A program made the translations under genes and the position numbers. A stretch of 33,661 nt of DNA, from contig JAPOHG010000021.1 of the NCBI GenBank assembly GCA_029979565.1, positions 1 to 33,661 of the forward strand, in the 5' to 3' direction. Positions 12,289-32,049 of the stretch are shown here, one piece after another. The notes under the pieces are model-generated. The model was not told the origin of the DNA. It searched no databases and worked only from the letters and a program-made list of their open reading frames with translations. The number at the start of each line of letters is the position of its first letter. Within the stretch, counting starts at the first letter, position 1. Origin of the DNA: a bacterium. Its GTDB lineage: Bacteria; Bacteroidota; Bacteroidia; Flavobacteriales_D; Sanyastnellaceae.

Positions 12289-14217
12289 ATGCGCGTTTCA
12301 ATCGGAGGTGATCATGCTGGACCCGCCTTGAAAAAGGTCCTGACCGCACACTTGGAATCCCAAGGTGTCGAAGTTATCAATCGGGGAACCGATTCACTGG
12401 AGAGCGTGGACTATCCGGACCATGCTCATGCGGTTTCAGCGGATGTTGCAAAAGCATCGGTAGATTTTGGTATTCTAATTTGCGGTTCAGCCAATGGGGT
12501 TGCTATGACCGCTAATAAGCATCAAGAAATTCGCGCGGGCTTAGCGTGGAACAGCGATGTTGCCCGACTTGTAAAACAACACAACAATGCGAATGTGTTG
12601 TGTATTCCAGCTCGGTTTGTATCGGACGATGAGGGTTTGGAAATTTTGAAGGCGTACATGGAAGAAGAATTTGAAGGCGGCCGTCACGAACGCCGGGTGA
12701 GCAAAATTGCCTGTGCGGTAGCGCTGTGCTTAATGGCTTTGGTTCCATCCATCCAGTTAATGGGTCAGGTCGGGGATCCCCAACCTTTCGCATCAACGAT
12801 TTCTGCTGAAGACCTGGAGAATCACCTCATGGTATTGGCTAGTGATGCATTTGAAGGACGAGAGACAGGTGAACCAGGAGCTGAGAAAGCAGCTGCATAC
12901 ATTGCAAGTCACTTCAATAGCTTAGGCATAGAACCGTACGATGGCTCTACGTACTACCAACCAGTCAAGCTGATTCGTTCGCAAATCACCGGCGGTCAGG
13001 CTTCCGTCAATGCAAGTCCGCTTGTATTCATGGATGATTTCCTTTTTTATCCGGGGTTGAAGGTTTCCAAAATGGAATCAGTTCCCATGGTGGCTGTGAG
13101 CAACGTTGAGGCCATTGCGTCGGTCGATGTAAAGGGCAAAGCGATTGTGGTTTCGGGTTCGGAGGCGCTGAACGATGTGCGGGAGGCAGCGAATGCTAAT
13201 GCAGCAGCGGCAGTTGTCGTTGTAAGCGAAGACATGAGCACACTTCGAAGTCGCATGAAGCCGTGGTTGATGCGCAAATCATTGCGCCTGGATCGCGACC
13301 AACCGAAAGAGCGCGAAGGAACCCGCATACCCACGTTCATGGTGGACGCTGCAGCCACGGATGCGTGGTGGAGTTCCGCTGATGTGAAGTCGTGGAGGAA
13401 ATGGAGCAAGAAGATTTCCAAAGGCAAAGCAGAAGATGCTGTTGAACTGGCCGGAACGACATGGAATTTTTCGCTGGACCGTACCAAAGAATCGGTCATT
13501 GGGCACAATGTGCTGGGCTACATCCCCGGTTCCGATTCACTGCTTCGAGAAGAACTGATAGTCATCACCTCGCACTATGACCACGTCGGCATCATTGATG
13601 GTGAAATCCACAACGGTGCTGACGATGACGGTTCCGGTACAGTGACGGTGCTGGAGTTGGCACAAGCCTTCCAGGAAGCGGTAAAAGCAGGCAACGGCCC
13701 CAAGCGCAGCGTATTGTTGATGACGGTTGTCGGAGAAGAAAAAGGACTCCTCGGCAGCGAGTGGTATACCGACCACCCCATCTGGCCATTGGAACAAACG
13801 GTCGCAAACCTGAACATCGACATGATCGGCCGCGTGGATGAATCACATCCGGATGATGACCGATACGTGTACCTCATTGGATCGGACAAACTCTCATCAG
13901 AACTGCATGAGATTAGCGAAACAGCCAATGCGACTTACACCAACCTAGCATTGGATTACACCTTCAATGCACCCGAAGATCCCAACCGGTTTTACTACCG
14001 TTCAGATCATTACAATTTTGCGAAGAACAACATCCCAGTCATCTTTTACTTCAGCGGAGTTCATGAGGATTACCATCGCCCCGGTGACGACCCTGAAAAA
14101 ATCCACTACGACAAGACAGCGGAAATTGGTCAACTGGTGTTTTGCACGGCTTGGCAATTGGCCAATCAAGCGAAACGAATCGAAGTCGACCGCGTCAACG
14201 ATTTTCCAACGAAATAG
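12289..14217 (+). CDS. Fusion: ribose-5-phosphate isomerase B + M28 zinc peptidase
   Basis: A single 642-codon frame with no stop between two complete domains. Residues 1-140 are RpiB, which interconverts ribose 5-phosphate and ribulose 5-phosphate in the cytosol: G-G-D-H-A-G, catalytic Cys65 in L-I-C-G-S-A-N-G, His98, and phosphate-binding Arg109, Arg132 and Arg136. Family members normally end a few residues after R-R-V-x-K-I. Here that motif runs directly into a hydrophobic stretch (about 141-159) ending M-G-Q, which looks like a signal peptide. Residues about 165-630 are an M28 aminopeptidase-type domain with an inserted PA-like domain (about 230-400) and all zinc/catalytic residues: His429, the Asp445-446 pair, Glu483/484, Asp511 and His596. 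A GTG at 12697 (codon 137), in frame, could start a separately exported peptidase. The start at 12289 fits the RpiB N-terminus. The 3' end overlaps the convergent lipoprotein gene by 23 bases. Confidence 0.88.
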   Translation: MRVSIGGDHAGPALKKVLTAHLESQGVEVINRGTDSLESVDYPDHAHAVSADVAKASVDFGILICGSANGVAMTANKHQEIRAGLAWNSDVARLVKQHNNANVLCIPARFVSDDEGLEILKAYMEEEFEGGRHERRVSKIACAVALCLMALVPSIQLMGQVGDPQPFASTISAEDLENHLMVLASDAFEGRETGEPGAEKAAAYIASHFNSLGIEPYDGSTYYQPVKLIRSQITGGQASVNASPLVFMDDFLFYPGLKVSKMESVPMVAVSNVEAIASVDVKGKAIVVSGSEALNDVREAANANAAAAVVVVSEDMSTLRSRMKPWLMRKSLRLDRDQPKEREGTRIPTFMVDAAATDAWWSSADVKSWRKWSKKISKGKAEDAVELAGTTWNFSLDRTKESVIGHNVLGYIPGSDSLLREELIVITSHYDHVGIIDGEIHNGADDDGSGTVTVLELAQAFQEAVKAGNGPKRSVLLMTVVGEEKGLLGSEWYTDHPIWPLEQTVANLNIDMIGRVDESHPDDDRYVYLIGSDKLSSELHEISETANATYTNLALDYTFNAPEDPNRFYYRSDHYNFAKNNIPVIFYFSGVHEDYHRPGDDPEKIHYDKTAEIGQLVFCTAWQLANQAKRIEVDRVNDFPTK

Positions 14218-15367
14218 CGGGTGCGGAATACCGCTTGAATGCGGCAACCTCTTCTTCGTACGCTGCACCCGTTGCTGGGCCATTGAATCCGGAATGAACG
14301 TGCACAGTGCCATCGTGTTGGATGAACAGCGTGGTCGGAAAGCTGATGATGCGGTCCAAAAACGGGAACGCGTCTGCTGCCACTTGCTTGCTTGCTTTTC
14401 CGCCGAGTACGATGTCCCAATCCACCCCCATCTCCGCGCGAAAAGCATCCAAACGCTCGTAGGCTACACCAACTGAATCGGGCCTTTCAAATGCCACGGA
14501 AAGTTGGTCGGCGTGTTCCATGGGAAGAGCAGACAACAACCGTACCTCGTCCATGCAGTTGGGGCACCAAGTGCCGAGAACATCCAGCACGGTTACACGC
14601 CCTTTCTCTGGCAACAATGAGCGTTCATAAGTCCCGCCTTTTGCATCGATGAGGCGGACAATCAAGGAATCCGCAGGAGGGTTCAACTTCGCCAATACGA
14701 CGCTTGAATCCCAGGGTTGTGCAGGGGCCGCGGACCACGTCGTGTGGTAATGGTTACCGCTGTAGAAATGACCACCGTTCCACTCGCCGTCTCTTAAGGT
14801 GGCGCTGAAGTAAAAAAGGTGTGCGCCGTCAAACGTCTGAAGGATCAATTCATCGCCATCGAACTGCCCCGCGAGGTAGCGGTAGTCTCCGGTGGGTGTG
14901 CGCATGGTGCCCTCGATTTGATCATTGTTGGGCTGTAAGTCGAGTTGTGCATCGGCTGTTCCCGCTTGTTCAGCGCTGCTCGATCCGAACCAGACGTCCC
15001 AACAACCCGTAATGGGTTGGCCGACCATTGTTGTTGCGGCCTCGGTTAATGTGAACGGGACGCGGTAGGCGCCGTTTGCTGTTTCAGGACGCAGGGAATC
15101 CGTCCAATAACCGGTTGAAGCGGTCGCCAGCGTGAGGGTTCCATTGAATACAGGAACGTGGTACGTTTCGCTGGTGGTCTGATTGAGTCGGATGGCCTCT
15201 TCCCCATTCCGCACCACCCACACGGAATCGCTGACCGCGAGAGGAAAATACGCTTGAATGGAATCGTTCAACACAAATGCCAAACGTTCATGGGATGGTG
15301 CTTGCACAGGGGGTGTTCCACACGCAGCTAAAAAGGCACCAGAGAGAAGCAGAAAAATCCCGCGCAT
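14195..15367 (-). CDS. TlpA-like thioredoxin-fold lipoprotein
   Basis: A 390-residue envelope lipoprotein. The start at 15367 gives a short basic start, a hydrophobic stretch and a lipobox L-A-A-C at about residues 13-16, followed by G-T-P-P; the open frame extends upstream but only inside the preceding gene. Residues about 30-240 form a beta-rich region without a recognised family, with G-C-W-D-V-W-F and R-Y-L-A-G-Q-F-D-G segments like those in Bacteroidota TlpA/DUF4369-type proteins. Residues about 245-380 are a TlpA/ResA-type thioredoxin fold with the redox pair in G-T-W-C-P-N-C and a cis-proline region S-F-P-T-T-L-F. The likely role is a periplasm-facing disulfide reductase. Its ATG overlaps the TGA of the aldehyde dehydrogenase (TGATG), implying translational coupling, and its 3' end overlaps the convergent RpiB-M28 gene. 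Confidence 0.88.
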   Translation of the reverse strand: MRGIFLLLSGAFLAACGTPPVQAPSHERLAFVLNDSIQAYFPLAVSDSVWVVRNGEEAIRLNQTTSETYHVPVFNGTLTLATASTGYWTDSLRPETANGAYRVPFTLTEAATTMVGQPITGCWDVWFGSSSAEQAGTADAQLDLQPNNDQIEGTMRTPTGDYRYLAGQFDGDELILQTFDGAHLFYFSATLRDGEWNGGHFYSGNHYHTTWSAAPAQPWDSSVVLAKLNPPADSLIVRLIDAKGGTYERSLLPEKGRVTVLDVLGTWCPNCMDEVRLLSALPMEHADQLSVAFERPDSVGVAYERLDAFRAEMGVDWDIVLGGKASKQVAADAFPFLDRIISFPTTLFIQHDGTVHVHSGFNGPATGAAYEEEVAAFKRYSAPAISLENR

Positions 15368-16899
15368 CAACCGAGGTTGAATTTGATGCCCTGGGCCAAC
15401 GGTAAGGTGCGTCCGTAGTTGACGGTATTGGTTTGGCGGCGCATGTACGCCTTCCACGCATCAGAGCCGGACTCGCGGCCGCCCCCGGTTTCCTTTTCTC
15501 CACCGAAGGCGCCGCCGATTTCAGCGCCGGAGGTGCCGATGTTGACATTGGCAATGCCGCAATCGGATCCGCTTGCACACAGGAACGCTTCGGCTTCTCG
15601 GACGTTGTTGGTCATGATGGCAGAGGAAAGCCCCTGGGCGACGTTATTTTGCATGGCAATGGCCTCATCCAATTCGTCGTAAGGCATGATGTAAAGCAAC
15701 GGAGCAAAGGTTTCGTGTTGGACAATGGCTAGGTCGTTGCTGGCTTCCGCAATCGAAGGGCTGACGTAGCAACCGCTTTCGTACCCCACTCCTTCGAGCT
15801 GGCCGCCTTTGACTACGAATTTACCCCCCTGGTCTTCTACAGCTTGAAGTGCATCCAGGTACATCTGAACCGCAGCCTGATCGGTGAGCGGTCCTACGTG
15901 GTTGCTTTGGTCGAGTGGGTTTCCGATGCTCAACTGTTTGTAGGCATTGGCCAAAACGTTTTTGACCTGCTCGTAGATGGAGCGGTGAATGATCAATCGA
16001 CGCGTAGATGTGCAACGTTGACCACATGTCCCGACGGCTCCAAATACAGCTGCCGGTACCACCATATCAAGGTCCGCATCGGGCGTGATGATGATGGCGT
16101 TGTTTCCCCCCAACTCGAGCAGCGCGCGGCCCAAACGTGCACCGACCCTAGCTCCTACCGCCTTGCCCATGCGGGTGCTGCCGGTTGCGCTAACCAACGG
16201 AATGCGTCCGTCGTCGCTGATCTTCTCTCCGATGTTGGCGTAGCCATTAACCACGCACGACAAGGCCGCAGGGACATCGTTGGCCGCAGCCACATCATTC
16301 CAGATGTGTTGGCAAGCGATGGAGCAAAGGGCGCTCTTCTCTGAAGGTTTCCAAACACACGAGTCGCCACAAATCCAAGCAAGGGCCGTGTTCCATGCCC
16401 ACACTGCTACAGGAAAGTTGAACGCGGAAATGATGCCAACCACACCGAGCGGGTGGTACTGTTCAAACATGCGGTGCTCAGGTCGCTCGGAGTGTGTAGT
16501 CATTCCGTAAAGCTGACGGCTCAGGCCAACAGCGAAGTCACAGATGTCAATCATTTCCTGCACTTCACCCAATCCCTCTTGCAAGGATTTACCCATCTCA
16601 TAACTCACCAAAGCACCCAGCGCGTCCTTTTTTTCGCGGAGGGCGTCTCCGAACTGGCGGACCACCTCTCCCCTCTTGGGCGCAGGTACACTCCTCCATT
16701 CAACAAACGCTGCTTGTGCCGCATCGATGACTTGCTCGTATTCTTCCTCGGTCGCGCTGGTAAGCGAGGCGATGACTTTGCCGTCGACAGGAGAAATCGA
16801 ATCAATGACGGGCCCTGAGCCAAAAGCCTGGGTACCGATCATGACACCGGGATTGGTGGATTGAATGTTGAGTTCGCGGAGGATGTTTTGGATGTCCAT
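15367..16899 (-). CDS. Aldehyde dehydrogenase, ALDH7 (aminoadipate semialdehyde) type
   Basis: A 510-residue NAD(P)-dependent aldehyde dehydrogenase of full length. Catalytic Cys296 lies in G-T-C-G-Q-R-C-T-S and the general-base Glu in L-E-L-G-G-N-N. The cofactor site shows S-A-F-N-F-P and W-K-P-S-E-K. The Q-R-C-T-S-T-R-R, I-G-N-P-L and C-terminal G-G-E-K-E-T-G-G-G-R-E-S-G-S-D-A-W-K segments are characteristic of ALDH7A1/antiquitin and bacterial piperideine-6-carboxylate dehydrogenase (AmaB/Pcd), which oxidises alpha-aminoadipate semialdehyde in lysine breakdown. The exact substrate is inferred from family resemblance; no other lysine catabolic gene is in the window. A good promoter lies just upstream, and the TlpA-like lipoprotein gene is coupled downstream. 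Confidence 0.93.
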   Translation of the reverse strand: MDIQNILRELNIQSTNPGVMIGTQAFGSGPVIDSISPVDGKVIASLTSATEEEYEQVIDAAQAAFVEWRSVPAPKRGEVVRQFGDALREKKDALGALVSYEMGKSLQEGLGEVQEMIDICDFAVGLSRQLYGMTTHSERPEHRMFEQYHPLGVVGIISAFNFPVAVWAWNTALAWICGDSCVWKPSEKSALCSIACQHIWNDVAAANDVPAALSCVVNGYANIGEKISDDGRIPLVSATGSTRMGKAVGARVGARLGRALLELGGNNAIIITPDADLDMVVPAAVFGAVGTCGQRCTSTRRLIIHRSIYEQVKNVLANAYKQLSIGNPLDQSNHVGPLTDQAAVQMYLDALQAVEDQGGKFVVKGGQLEGVGYESGCYVSPSIAEASNDLAIVQHETFAPLLYIMPYDELDEAIAMQNNVAQGLSSAIMTNNVREAEAFLCASGSDCGIANVNIGTSGAEIGGAFGGEKETGGGRESGSDAWKAYMRRQTNTVNYGRTLPLAQGIKFNLG

Positions 16900-23240: not shown

Positions 23241-23318
23241 AGCCTTACGAAGTTACAATCCAACACGGGTTCAGCAGCGGGTTGTTGTGTGCATGTGAGC
23301 GTTCAATGGGAATGTGTG

Positions 23319-23326
23319 TACTTTTG
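23319..23326 (+). promoter_or_regulatory. Candidate -7 promoter element for the lamin-tail protein gene
   Basis: TACTTTTG matches the Bacteroidota -7 consensus TAnnTTTG exactly. It ends 29 bases before the ATG at 23356, and would leave almost no leader for the alternative ATG at 23338, which supports the downstream start. No TTG lies at the usual -33 distance. Confidence 0.5.
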
Positions 23327-23355
23327 GTTCCCCCAAAATGGTAGCAACGATTCAC

Positions 23356-26300
23356 ATGCCTACGATTATTACCGCCACAACCCCACGTATTCGAGCGGGG
23401 TTTTTCACCCTTCTTTTGATCGGCATTGCAACTTCGGCTGGCTGGTCCCAATTGGTCATCAACGAATTCGATCCCTCTGGACCCGGAACGGATACCGAGG
23501 AGTTTGTTGAGCTGTACGGAACCCCAAGCGAAGACCTTTCTGGCTATGCGCTGGTTATTTACAACGGCTCCAATGCCCAATCGAATTTAACGATTGACTT
23601 GACGGGGCTTTCGCTCGATGCCGATGGATTCTTGTTGATCGGTGGGCCCGGCTTGCCCGAAGCAGACGTGGTCATTGAATCAACCAACTGGTTGCAAGTG
23701 GGCCAAGAAGGCATCGCTCTGTATGATGCGGATGCTGCGAATTTCCCCAACGGCACTCCGGTTACGGATGAGGATTTATTGGATGCGGTGGTTTACGGCA
23801 ACAACCAACCGCCAATGTTGAGTTTGTTGGACGTGCTGACACCGAACGGTGTGCAATTGAACGAAAGTGCTGAAGGCTTGGCGGATTACCAAAGTTTGTC
23901 CCGCGTCCCCGATGGCGGCTCCCCACAAACTCCAGGCGACTTCATTTTGCAAGCACCCACTCCAGGATACAGCAACGTATTGGTGTGTGATGGGGGACAA
24001 ATCACCCTCCAAAATGCGGCAAACAGCGAGGTGTGTACGGATGCGAGCGAACTGGTATTGATTCAATTGTTGCACACCAACGACGTGCCTGAAGCGTCCT
24101 TTACAGCGGTGGTTGCCGATGCAGAGACCGGACTGATCATGGCAACGTTTGACGGGCCTGCGGTAAACGTCGCCGGCATGGGAGATGGTGTATTGGAGGT
24201 GTTTGGCGTTTCCCATAATGACCCTCTGATTGCGTCGACAACCGCGTCCGGTCAGCCCGTGGAGGGCATTGAGGGTGAGGGGTGTTATGCCTTTGCCTTC
24301 AACTCAATTGAAATCATTGGCGAGACCTGCGACCCTCCGGCGTGTGATGGAGGAAACGTCACAGACGCGTCGGGCACTCCGTCAGCACTCGGATGTCTGG
24401 GCATGGAAAACGCAGTAGTCACCTTTGGATACACGTCGGAAGCTGTGGATGCGGAGTACATTTTTGTCATCACAGACGAAGCCCAAGTCATCTTGGACAC
24501 CGTGGGTTTCCCGCAGTACGATTTCACTGCATTGGGCGTGGGTACGTATCAAGTATGGGGCAGCAGTGGTTTGGAGGGGTTTGATGAAACCACGCTTGAG
24601 GCGGGAAGTCCATTGAGTGGAATTCTCGGTGTGGAGTGTGACAGCCTGAGCAATTCGTTTTTGGAAGTTGAAATTTTGGATTGTGAGAGTGCGAGTTTCT
24701 GCGAAGAGATTTTCATTTCCGAATACGTCGAAGGCAACAGCAACAACAAGGCGCTGGAGCTTTACAACCCTTCGCCGGTGGCCATTAATTTGGAGGGGTA
24801 CCACATGGAGACATGGAACAACGGGGCCTCAGAACCTACCAACACCCAACTGCTTGAAGGGGTCATTGAACCAAACGACGTGTTCGTCATCATGAACGCA
24901 TTGGCGGCACCCGAGCTGTACCAAGCGGCGGACATCGAAAGCCAGGTGACGTGGTTCAACGGCAACGACGTGATCGTGCTGTACCACGACGGGGTCATCA
25001 TCGACCAAATGGGTGAGTTTGGCCCGGATCCGGGATCACCGTTCACGGTCGATGGGGGCGCGGGAGAGATGGCGGAGTACACCCTGGTGCGCAAATCCAA
25101 TGTTTCCCAAGGAAGCACCAATTGGGAGGTGGGCCAATACCAATGGGACGTCTATCCCCAGGACACCTTTGACTTCATTGGATACCACTCGGCTACGTGC
25201 ACAGGCACGCCGGATATGGCGTTGGGTTTTGCGGCGACTGATCTGTACGTGTTTGAGGGGGGAGGAGCAGAAGTTGTGATGCAAGTGGCGTACCCCTTGC
25301 AAGACGCAACGGTTGTCGTGGACGTTGTTGGTGGAACCGCGACACCGGGCGATGATTTCCCCGGGGTGTTCCCGCTTCCGGAATTTTCATTCCCCATCGG
25401 ATTGCTGAACGACCAATCCTTCACCTTCGCGGCCATCGACGACGAAGAGCCGGAAGGGGAAGAGACGGTGGAATTGGCGATTGAAGTGACATCCGGGGAG
25501 GTCGTATTGCTCATCGACACCGTGACCATTCACATCCAACCTTCGGATCTGACCTATCCGGTGTACGACATTGCGACCGTTCGATCGGTTGATTTTGTCT
25601 CCGGTGTAACGGATAGCTTGGGGGTTTCATGTGAATTGCGCGGCATTGCGCACGGGTGGAACGACTACCCCTCTGGCCTTCAGTTCACCTTGATTGATTC
25701 AACCCACGGCATCAACGTCTTCAGTCCGCTTTCTGATTTTGGGTATGAAGAAGTAGTTCCAGGAGACAGCCTGCGGATTCGAGGGACCATTGCGCAGTTT
25801 GCAGGACTGACGCAAATCATTGCTGACACGGTGCTGTACGAGGGCTCAGGCTTCTTAACCGAACAGCCAGAGCTGGTGCAGGAACTCAACGAAGAAACGG
25901 AATCCCACGTCATTCGACTGAAGTGTGTGGAATTAGTGGATCCCGCGCAATGGACGAACAGCGCTCCGAGTTTTGAGGTGGACATCACAACAGGGGCACA
26001 GGTATACACCATGCGCATCGATGCCAACACGGACCTGTTTTTGACGGATCCACCGGTGGGGGTTTTCGGGGTGACAGGTATCGGTGACCAGCGGGATTTT
26101 GACGAGCCGCATTTTGAAGGCTACCGCATTTCACCGCGCTATCAATCTGACCTCTCCGAACCGGTAGATGCGGCTTTTACAGTGGTTTCACCGTGGAATT
26201 TGTTGGACGGAAATTTGGAAATTGAAAACCTGAGTACAGGTGCAGCGGGGTACTATTGGACATTTGGGGATGGCGGAACCAGCGATGAGGAAACCCCAGA

Positions 26301-26658
26301 ATACGCTTACACCGAAGAAGGGGTGTACCAGGTGTATTTGACGGTTTTCAGCACAGACGGGTACTGCTCAGACCAAGCATTGGTTGAAGTGGATGTCATC
26401 GTGGTCTCGGTAGATGAGCTGGGTTTTGAAGCCAACCTGTGGCCCAATCCCGCAACAGGCTCGGTAATCTTTGAATCAAGCGCAACCATGAGTGAGGTCG
26501 AGCTGTACGGGATGGACGGCCGCCTTCTCGCATCGCATGCACCCCACCAAACGCGGTTTACATTGGATGTATCTCAATGGCCTGCGGGCGTGTATGTCGC
26601 GCGCATTACGACACCCCAAGGAATCAAGTCGGTTCAAGTCATTCGAGCCGCCCGCTGA
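23356..26658 (+). CDS. Exported lamin-tail/Calx-beta/PKD protein with T9SS type A domain
   Basis: A 1100-residue multidomain secreted protein. The start at 23356 gives a signal peptide with the hydrophobic run F-F-T-L-L-L-I-G-I ending G-W-S-Q at residue 32. Domains in order: lamin-tail domain (about 33-150; L-V-I-N-E-F-D), an unassigned beta-rich region with two W-G/F-G type strands (150-445), a second lamin-tail domain (about 449-580; I-F-I-S-E-Y-V-E-G-N-S-N-N-K), a Calx-beta-like domain (about 620-730), an OB-fold/DUF5689-like region (about 733-890), a PKD domain (about 936-1016; W-T-F-G-D-G-G) and a type A sorting domain (about 1017-1100; W-P-N-P-A-T-G). Lamin-tail domains of this kind are frequent in secreted nucleases and adhesins. 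No nuclease motif is seen here, but its convergent neighbour is a secreted nuclease-like enzyme. Confidence 0.88.
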   Translation: MPTIITATTPRIRAGFFTLLLIGIATSAGWSQLVINEFDPSGPGTDTEEFVELYGTPSEDLSGYALVIYNGSNAQSNLTIDLTGLSLDADGFLLIGGPGLPEADVVIESTNWLQVGQEGIALYDADAANFPNGTPVTDEDLLDAVVYGNNQPPMLSLLDVLTPNGVQLNESAEGLADYQSLSRVPDGGSPQTPGDFILQAPTPGYSNVLVCDGGQITLQNAANSEVCTDASELVLIQLLHTNDVPEASFTAVVADAETGLIMATFDGPAVNVAGMGDGVLEVFGVSHNDPLIASTTASGQPVEGIEGEGCYAFAFNSIEIIGETCDPPACDGGNVTDASGTPSALGCLGMENAVVTFGYTSEAVDAEYIFVITDEAQVILDTVGFPQYDFTALGVGTYQVWGSSGLEGFDETTLEAGSPLSGILGVECDSLSNSFLEVEILDCESASFCEEIFISEYVEGNSNNKALELYNPSPVAINLEGYHMETWNNGASEPTNTQLLEGVIEPNDVFVIMNALAAPELYQAADIESQVTWFNGNDVIVLYHDGVIIDQMGEFGPDPGSPFTVDGGAGEMAEYTLVRKSNVSQGSTNWEVGQYQWDVYPQDTFDFIGYHSATCTGTPDMALGFAATDLYVFEGGGAEVVMQVAYPLQDATVVVDVVGGTATPGDDFPGVFPLPEFSFPIGLLNDQSFTFAAIDDEEPEGEETVELAIEVTSGEVVLLIDTVTIHIQPSDLTYPVYDIATVRSVDFVSGVTDSLGVSCELRGIAHGWNDYPSGLQFTLIDSTHGINVFSPLSDFGYEEVVPGDSLRIRGTIAQFAGLTQIIADTVLYEGSGFLTEQPELVQELNEETESHVIRLKCVELVDPAQWTNSAPSFEVDITTGAQVYTMRIDANTDLFLTDPPVGVFGVTGIGDQRDFDEPHFEGYRISPRYQSDLSEPVDAAFTVVSPWNLLDGNLEIENLSTGAAGYYWTFGDGGTSDEETPEYAYTEEGVYQVYLTVFSTDGYCSDQALVEVDVIVVSVDELGFEANLWPNPATGSVIFESSATMSEVELYGMDGRLLASHAPHQTRFTLDVSQWPAGVYVARITTPQGIKSVQVIRAAR

Positions 26659-30553: not shown

Positions 30554-31039
30554 ATGGAATGGGAAGTTCGTTGGCCTGATGGACGGGCGGAGCGTGTTTC
30601 ACCCCAAGCGGGCGAGGCATGGGACTGGAAACCGGTTGGTCCAGGGGTGTACGATGTGCGCATGGGCACAAAAAATGTCCGGATTGAAACGCTCGAGGGT
30701 CCAGACGCTGAAGGTCACGTTCGCATTCGCGTGAACGGGGTGGAGCATCAGTTGCAGGTACTTGATGACCAGAAAATGCTCCTGGAATCCATGGGCATGG
30801 GAAAGGGCGCTGAATCAGTGGAATCGGCAGTCGAGGCGCCCATGCCCGGTAAGGTACTCGAGGTAAAGGTGGCAGCGGGCGATGAGGTAGTGGCTGGAGA
30901 TGCGCTGCTCATCCTTGAGGCCATGAAGATGGAGAATGTCCTCCGTGCGCCTCGAGATGGAAAAATCGAACGAATCCAGGCCCAGGTGGGAGAGGCCGTA
31001 GAAAAAGGCACGGTATTGGTTACATATGAAACGAATTAA
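30554..31039 (+). CDS. Biotin carboxyl carrier protein-like (biotinyl/lipoyl domain)
   Basis: A 161-residue protein. Residues about 85-161 form a biotinyl domain with the attachment site E-A-M-K125-M, and P-M-P-G-K near the start of the domain. The N-terminal 80 residues are beta-rich and resemble the extra domain of carrier subunits associated with acyl-CoA carboxylases (acetyl-, propionyl- or methylcrotonyl-CoA) in Bacteroidota. The carrier swings biotin between the biotin carboxylase and carboxyltransferase sites. No carboxylase gene is in the window, so its partner is elsewhere. The next gene starts two bases after its stop. TAACTTG at 30542-30548 ends five bases before the ATG. Confidence 0.93.
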   Translation: MEWEVRWPDGRAERVSPQAGEAWDWKPVGPGVYDVRMGTKNVRIETLEGPDAEGHVRIRVNGVEHQLQVLDDQKMLLESMGMGKGAESVESAVEAPMPGKVLEVKVAAGDEVVAGDALLILEAMKMENVLRAPRDGKIERIQAQVGEAVEKGTVLVTYETN

Positions 31040-31041
31040 TC

Positions 31042-32049
31042 ATGCGTTGGAAAAACATGAAAAGCGCAGTGCATAAGGGGCTCATCAGCGCGGTCCTTGT
31101 TGTTGGTTGCAGCTTGGCACATGCCCAGAGTTGCGACAACCCCATTCCCATTTGCGGTGACATCCCGGAGCCGCTTTCACTCAGCTTTGTCCAGTCGTTG
31201 GATGTGGCCTGTGTGAATTCACCGTACGTTTCGGTATTGGAATTCATGACCAACGGAAACGTGGTCAACACCGGGGGCGCAACGGTTGAGGTGGGTGGTG
31301 TCGCGTGTGAAACGGACGGTGTGGAGGATGTGATTGAATTGGTGGTGGTGAAACCCGACCCTCAGGCTTTGTGCGACGTCGACGCCTATGAAGTGGTGGC
31401 TACCTGTGGTGAAACAGGGGGCTCCTTCACCGTGGTGACCAACGACTTGCTCCCCAACACGACGTACTTGATTTTGGTCGGCACGGCGCACGACCCTTCG
31501 TTGACGCCTTGCAATTTGACCTTGTTTTTGTCCGGCCCGGCGGTGTCCATCGATGCGTGTTGCACCACCAACATTGCCCCCGGTCAAAGCGTCACCCTCA
31601 CCGTCACCGGCGGGGACGAAGACCTTGGGTACACCTGGTTTCCTGATTTGGGCTTGTCGTCGACCACGGATGCGGAAATCATCGCTTCGCCTTCGGTTAC
31701 CACCACGTATTCGGTTTCAGGGTTCTTTGGCGGTTGCCAGTTCACCGATGCCGTGACCATCACGGTCGGCAACCCGGTGGGCATCCCCACCAGCTTCACG
31801 CCGAACAGCGATTTGATCAACGATTACTGGAGCATCGACGGCTTGTCCCAATACAATCAGGCCGATGTTCGCATATACGACCGTTGGGGCCAATTGGTTT
31901 TCCGCAGCGTGGGCTATGCCCAGCCTTGGGACGGCAAGAACGGCGGCAACGATGTGCCGGTCGGAACGTATTACTACGCCATAGACTTCAACGACCCGCA
32001 ACTCGTGGGCATGGAAACGGTCACTGGCTTTATCAGCATCATCCGATGA
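31042..32049 (+). CDS. Exported protein with T9SS type B (gliding-motility-type) sorting domain
   Basis: A 335-residue secreted protein. A signal peptide is evident (hydrophobic I-S-A-V-L-V-V-G-C, end A-H-A-Q near residue 29); ATG 31057 is an alternative start that keeps it. The mature N-terminal part (about 30-170) is cysteine-containing and beta-rich with no recognised domain. Residues about 175-235 look like an Ig/PKD-like strand set (Y-T-W-F-P-D-L-G-L-S). The C-terminal ~85 residues are a type B sorting domain of the CHU_C kind: I-P-T-S-F-T-P-N-S-D, Y-D-R-W-G-Q-L-V-F and V-G-T-Y-Y-Y. Type B cargo needs a PorP/SprF partner, and the next gene encodes one; the coding sequences overlap by four bases. 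Confidence 0.9.
   Translation: MRWKNMKSAVHKGLISAVLVVGCSLAHAQSCDNPIPICGDIPEPLSLSFVQSLDVACVNSPYVSVLEFMTNGNVVNTGGATVEVGGVACETDGVEDVIELVVVKPDPQALCDVDAYEVVATCGETGGSFTVVTNDLLPNTTYLILVGTAHDPSLTPCNLTLFLSGPAVSIDACCTTNIAPGQSVTLTVTGGDEDLGYTWFPDLGLSSTTDAEIIASPSVTTTYSVSGFFGGCQFTDAVTITVGNPVGIPTSFTPNSDLINDYWSIDGLSQYNQADVRIYDRWGQLVFRSVGYAQPWDGKNGGNDVPVGTYYYAIDFNDPQLVGMETVTGFISIIR

Follow-up and report, generated by a model that had tools for sequence, protein, structure and literature searches.

A ribose-5-phosphate isomerase B fused in frame to a predicted exported M28 peptidase in a clade of Sanyastnellaceae: a probable polyprotein with an internal signal peptide

How can a soluble cytosolic enzyme and an exported protein share one open reading frame? 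Selection would be expected to eliminate such fusions, since export would carry the enzyme away or jam it, yet one of them has been fixed, probably twice, and kept across genera in the family Sanyastnellaceae (Bacteroidota). It was met in a stretch of 33,661 nucleotides (contig JAPOHG010000021.1, hereafter the window), where translation of the plus strand gave an uninterrupted frame at 12289-14217 of 642 codons followed by TAG. An earlier note, made from the letters of the window, had described this frame as a complete ribose-5-phosphate isomerase B (RpiB) joined to a complete M28 peptidase, and had offered three options: a membrane-anchored two-sided protein, a polyprotein cut by signal peptidase, or internal initiation of a separate peptidase. 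The features to which the text refers are the following:

12289..12711, plus strand: RpiB domain (residues 1-141, from the ATG start; Pfam PF02502)
12691..12708, plus strand: basic RpiB tail RRVSKI (residues 135-140), putative n-region of an internal signal peptide, from its net charge
12697..12699, plus strand: GTG codon (V137), candidate internal start, judged not to be one (GTG in 19 of 44 fused genes; no synonymous excess)
12706..12765, plus strand: predicted h- and c-region of the internal signal peptide (residues 140-159), from hydropathy and the kept glutamine
12766..12768, plus strand: Q160, predicted +1 glutamine after a signal peptidase I cut between G159 and Q160 ([AGST]Q; Q-rule)
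12766..14214, plus strand: M28 metallopeptidase, predicted exported product (residues 160-642; Pfam PF04389)
13507-14139, plus strand: M28 catalytic domain (residues 407-617)
14215..14217, plus strand: stop codon TAG

The description of the frame held; both halves belong to known families, of which they are ordinary members. The RpiB half contained the full LacAB_rpiB domain (PF02502; residues 3-140, profile 1-138 of 138, E 4.1e-49) with the catalytic Cys, the His and the phosphate-binding Arg/His, and scored 158.7 bits with the NCBIfam model PRK05571 (above the cut-off of 135) and 135.7 bits with the rpiB equivalog model TIGR01120 (just below the cut-off of 138.65). The Peptidase_M28 domain (PF04389) was found at residues 407-617 (profile 1-189 of 193, E 6.3e-38) with the metal/catalytic His-Asp-Glu-Asp-His set. 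This half aligned with the aminopeptidases 2ek8 (phmmer) and YwaD/BSAP, and 2ek8 was the top Foldseek match of the M28 part (E 4.3e-26). Nine checked RpiB positions (D8, H9, C65, H98, N99, R109, R132, H133 and R136) and five checked M28 positions (H429, D446, E483, E484 and D511) were identical in all 44 fused genes described below, and a sixth, H596, was present in 43 of them, with a gap in one truncated gene; these are the residues that we take to have catalytic or metal-binding roles. The M28 aminopeptidases of known structure (2ek8, BSAP/YwaD 6hc6 and PaAP 8ac9) have the same catalytic domain and fold, carry ordinary N-terminal signal peptides and differ in having no RpiB in front.

The junction lay at the usual end of RpiB, as had been proposed: solved RpiB chains aligned to residues 2-140 of the fused protein, the alignment ending at I140, and unfused RpiB proteins of the family ended a few residues past that point (for example RRVNKIACS, followed by the stop). 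An AlphaFold2 model built from a 53-row alignment (mean pLDDT 89.3, pTM 0.74) had two confident parts, and the junction between them, at residues 142-158, was modelled with pLDDT below 50.

The fusion was not peculiar to this contig. Among 114 genomes of the family searched, RpiB was found in 102, of which 43, from six genera (here numbered g1, g3, g9, g10, g13 and g14), had the fusion, defined as RpiB in an open frame of at least 620 amino acids; in the other 59 RpiB was encoded in a short frame. The fused genomes belonged to g1 (19), g3 (10), g14 (9), g9 (2), g10 (2) and g13 (1), and their proteins ranged down to about 50% identity to that of the window. In g1, the genus of the window, 22 genomes were searched and all 19 with an RpiB were fused; the remaining three (88%, 91% and 73% complete) gave no RpiB match. 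Junctions were read in 44 fused genes; of the 59 unfused RpiB genomes, 49 were read at the junction and ten, including one in which the gene was split over two contigs (G030), were classed by frame length only; two genomes with no RpiB on the stretch (G056 and G134) and one duplicate locus (L184) were left out of the junction counts. Most of these genomes are draft assemblies, which is what could be said for an assembly or sequencing artefact. The fusion is common to 43 genomes in six genera, so that the refuting condition set by the earlier note, an isolated assembly change with two separate genes in close relatives, fails; an artefact is refuted for the clade and its chance is negligible. 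The fusion is real and fixed in a clade.

The 44th fused gene is a second copy in a g14 genome (G152:C23), which grouped with g1 and was 75% identical to the window protein; it is perhaps a contamination or a transfer.

Outside the family no fusion was found among the matches listed, which allow a verdict on some of the genomes only: an order-wide search that included the family covered 399 genomes, 150 of them matching at E 1e-95, and the other 249 were not judgeable at that level. Frames of 670-675 in Fluviicola-like genomes were considered as fusions outside the family and rejected, the four that were read having separate genes, and three further order-level loci that were read also had separate rpiB and M28 genes. 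In 39 genomes of the other families of the order (E 0.001), 32 RpiB matches were counted, in frames of 144-260 amino acids, and one genome (G097) had a full-length match with two stops. A wider search of contigs gave, for the best 80 of at least 592 loci, 2 fused genes, 33 pairs of separate genes and 45 loci without RpiB in the stretch read; the 2 fused loci were Flavobacteriales MAG records, apparently the g1 contigs of two genomes already counted (G015 and G011). No pertinent report of RpiB fusions was found in the open-access literature.

The fused protein appears to be the only ribose-5-phosphate isomerase of the lineage, many of whose genomes are incomplete. None of the 114 family genomes gave an RpiA match (completeness was 90% or more in 50 of them, many of the others were incomplete, and the genome of the window was 79.6% complete) in a search that was positive in 8 of 14 known genomes used as a control. 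One RpiB was present per fused genome, except in the g14 genome with two copies and in one other (G144), an assembly that is 6% contaminated, where the second match was a different protein that resembles a nucleotidyltransferase and ends in an RpiB-like part. The single RpiB and the lack of an RpiA match support the view that the RpiB half would have isomerase activity, and, given that the checked residues are kept, it would have to be active in the cytosol. The second match in G144 (L197, contig C39, minus strand) is itself a fusion of another kind: a diverged RpiB-like domain, 29.7% identical, forms the last part of a frame of 387 residues, the beginning of which resembles, by eye, a sugar-nucleotide transferase.

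In the unfused relatives the rpiB and M28 genes adjoined on one strand. Of the 49 unfused family genes read, 27 had an M28 start that overlapped the RpiB stop by 4 bp, as did all 13 read in the sister genus g10 (ATGA), and the M28 gene began mostly in another frame than RpiB, with an apparent signal peptide of its own. Other Bacteroidota (Pedobacter, Mucilaginibacter, Fluviicola) have the same two proteins as separate adjoining genes, in the same order and on the same strand, the M28 gene having an apparent signal peptide or lipobox of its own; such unfused pairs differ from the fused gene by a stop codon between the genes and by a separate M28 start, which often overlaps the RpiB stop by 4 bp. 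Measured from the lysine codon of the tail, the first glutamine codon preceded by [AGST] lay 54-66 bases away, a multiple of three, in six fused genes, versus 71-80 bases and 2 modulo 3 in seven unfused g10 genes, which points to a net loss of bases that removed the overlap and aligned the two frames.

Five of the six fused genera (g1, g3, g9, g13 and g14) formed one group, with a support of 0.993 in a FastTree of 107 rows and an SH-aLRT of 96 in a tree of 41 rows, and the two fused g10 genes grouped with the unfused genes of g10, so that the tree needs two changes. A single clade of all fused rows was rejected (p-AU 1.6e-5; 41 rows, quick tree). The 41 rows were the first per genus out of the 107, analysed by a quick method, and include a g13 row (G033) with a long branch and an odd make-up; one genome with a partial RpiB (G131) and the second copy in G152 were left out of this tree and of the synonymous analyses below. 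Probably the neighbouring genes, which often overlap by 4 bp, fused on two occasions. A single fusion with a later split in g10 is likewise a history of two changes, and the tree alone does not decide; in our judgement this second history is less likely, as all 13 unfused g10 genes have the ATGA overlap, which was found in other unfused genera too.

What happens to the product depends on the segment between the two enzymes. The earlier note had seen a stretch resembling a signal peptide after RpiB. Its hydrophobic core was confirmed within residues 140-159 (best 12-residue Kyte-Doolittle mean 2.85), followed by G159 and Q160, but the stretch is not cleanly separated from the isomerase, since it overlaps the RpiB tail, whose RRVSK gives the charges. 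The net charge from H133 to the h-region was +1 to +3 in all 44 fused genes, and a similar basic tail closes RpiB in the unfused relatives. The core was as hydrophobic in fused genes as in unfused relatives (2.59 vs. 2.50). An [AGST]Q pair followed it in 44 of 44 fused genes (AQ in 32, GQ in 8, SQ in 3 and TQ in 1) versus 1453 of 8800 windows of 23 residues drawn at random from these proteins (16.5%), the 44 junctions being related by descent and so not 44 independent trials. The same pair was present in 48 of 49 unfused M28 proteins of the family and in 7 of 14 of the order. Mean pairwise identity was 67% for RpiB and 76% for the catalytic part of M28, and only 27% for the junction stretch (0.27 over residues 141-160 in fused genes), in which hydrophobicity and the glutamine were nonetheless kept.

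Seven order-level unfused M28 proteins (L026, L059, L064, L065, L067, L068 and L069) had by eye a lipobox-like Cys and no A-Q; their M28 may be anchored in a different way.

A glutamine at +1 is the mark of the Q-rule: Q is given at +1 in a species average of 71% of predicted signal peptidase I substrates of Bacteroidetes, in a study that did not cover inner-membrane proteins (PMC5837995). A single open frame holds a predicted signal peptide ahead of the M28 domain, called from hydropathy, charge and glutamine. In the window species the residue at -3 is Leu and that at -1 is Gly, not A-x-A. The signal peptidase I family (PF10502) was found in 20 of 22 genomes of the window's genus, the window's own genome included. 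Two other export routes were rejected. RR was present in the tail of 38 of the 44 fused genes, as a Tat signal would have, but many unfused RpiB tails share it; and a lipobox after the core, as expected for a lipoprotein processed by signal peptidase II, was found in none of the 44.

The same segment could in principle stay in the membrane. In the main rival explanation, which agrees with the first option of the earlier note, the protein would be uncleaved and two-sided, with a permanent anchor holding RpiB in the cytosol and M28 in the periplasm. ToxR/CadC-type bitopic proteins have a cytosolic N-terminal domain, one internal hydrophobic segment and a periplasmic C-terminal domain, and the fused protein has the same predicted layout; they differ in being uncut by signal peptidase and in having functionally linked domains. 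The segment is long enough to span the membrane (19-residue mean hydropathy of 1.3-2.5 across the 44 fused genes). A permanent anchor leaves the [AGST]Q pair of all 44 genes unexplained, a kept glutamine being expected of a cleaved protein and not of an anchor or a dead segment, and it is cleaved proteins of Bacteroidetes that keep this Q (PMC5837995). We regard an uncleaved anchor as unlikely. The option of a polyprotein cut by signal peptidase was the best supported of the three, its cleavage and topology being read from sequence features.

Ranked after the uncleaved anchor is internal initiation, either within the RpiB tail or shortly ahead of it (at the GTG at 12697 or upstream), by which a separate exported M28 would be made and RpiB would exist in the long form only. 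Unfused relatives do begin M28 here, and a start codon was available in many fused genes: GTG at the position of codon 12697 in 19 of 44, ATG just before the core in one more, and ATG, GTG or TTG within the 25 codons upstream of the GGRH motif in 38 of 44, which leaves room for a start farther up within RpiB. In g3 an in-frame ATG stood 11 codons before GGRH in 10 of 10 genes, and a start at this ATG is possible in that genus. Against this, the GTG that the earlier note had put forward was present in 7 of the 19 g1 genes; 24 of the 44 fused genes had no ATG, GTG or TTG between GGRH and the hydrophobic core, and in 5 of the 44, all from g14, the 25 codons ahead of GGRH lacked one as well. No single start codon from GGRH to the core was common to the 44 genes, and no conserved start codon or initiation signal was found at the junction.

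Synonymous conservation, with expectations fitted per genome pair and per amino acid, gave the same picture. There was no synonymous excess at codons 129-146 of the fused genes in g1 (z -1.9 to +0.3, 19 genomes), g3 (-1.4 to -0.5, 10 genomes) or g14 (-1.8 to -0.3, 9 genomes). The end of rpiB in unfused g10 did have one (+2.1 to +2.4 in the last three windows, 12 genomes), and in 36 other unfused genomes the values reached +2.1 a few codons earlier and +0.6 at the very end. The test is weak, its z values coming from overlapping windows of one gene, and the control at the gene start was uneven (+4.1 in g1, +1.5 in g3, +1.2 in unfused g10, -0.9 in g14 and -1.2 in other unfused genera) where constraint is expected, so that it can miss start sites. 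A value of +2.3 in the hydrophobic core of g1 (codons 144-151), from an earlier computation, was taken as a likely bias from close relatives at variable positions. The lack of an excess in the fused genera suggests, but does not prove, that the former initiation signal of M28 decayed once the genes had fused. Internal initiation at the GTG was accordingly dropped, and initiation anywhere near the tail is considered improbable.

A translational frameshift that frees RpiB in part of the chains is a further alternative and a very improbable one. A +1 shift at the K139 codon of the window would meet a stop after 5 codons, but in the 44 fused genes the next stop of the other frames lay anywhere between 1 and 85 codons away, the lysine codon was AAA in some and AAG in others, and synonymous conservation at the site was absent.

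The reading preferred here, to which we give a probability of about 0.7, is that translation of the fused gene yields one continuous chain, most likely a polyprotein that is then processed. An indel where rpiB meets the M28 gene would have removed the stop and the start and put both frames in register. In the single chain, RpiB (residues 1-140) would fold in the cytosol, and the next 20 or so residues would act as a Sec signal peptide inside the protein, with the basic RpiB tail as its n-region, inserting N-in/C-out in the inner membrane. The M28 domain would be translocated via Sec, and signal peptidase I, which is assumed to be able to cut behind a folded cytosolic domain, would cleave before Q160. 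The predicted products are an M28 peptidase with an N-terminal glutamine, periplasmic or further exported, and an RpiB with a hydrophobic C-terminal tail, which would remain at the inner membrane until or unless it is trimmed. Since the basic tail of RpiB can serve as the n-region of its neighbour, losing the stop and the start need cost neither function.

A broader proposal is offered tentatively, its chances being put at slightly under even: that the sole isomerase of these bacteria has become the obligatory cytosolic head of a secretory polyprotein, tethered to the inner membrane by its spent signal peptide, that a step of central carbon metabolism is thereby coupled one-to-one to the Sec export of a peptidase, and that this probably evolved twice.

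The nearest precedent known to us is the cytochrome b/c1 precursor of Bradyrhizobium japonicum, encoded by the single gene fbcH, which has an internal signal peptide and is cut by signal peptidase. The likeness lies in one bacterial gene whose second protein is preceded by an internal signal peptide, the cut being predicted in the present case. The first protein differs: in fbcH it is integral to the membrane and belongs to the same complex as the second, whereas RpiB is soluble, cytosolic and part of an unrelated pathway. The fused gene may offer a concrete route from overlapping bacterial genes to processed polyproteins, and suggests that a signal peptidase site can reveal where one protein ends and the next begins in cases that gene annotation would overlook.

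Several neighbouring features of the window were also recorded. The 3' end of the fused gene (14195-14217) overlapped tail to tail with a minus-strand frame at 14195-15457, which gave a weak DsbE/StoA-like match, below the cut-offs of the models. Type IX secretion sorting domains (Por_Secre_tail, CHU_C) were found in three window proteins (838-2202, 23314-26658 and 31042-32049), one of which also had lamin-tail and PKD domains, and a small protein with a biotin/lipoyl-attachment domain (30554-31039) was encoded directly ahead of the CHU_C protein.
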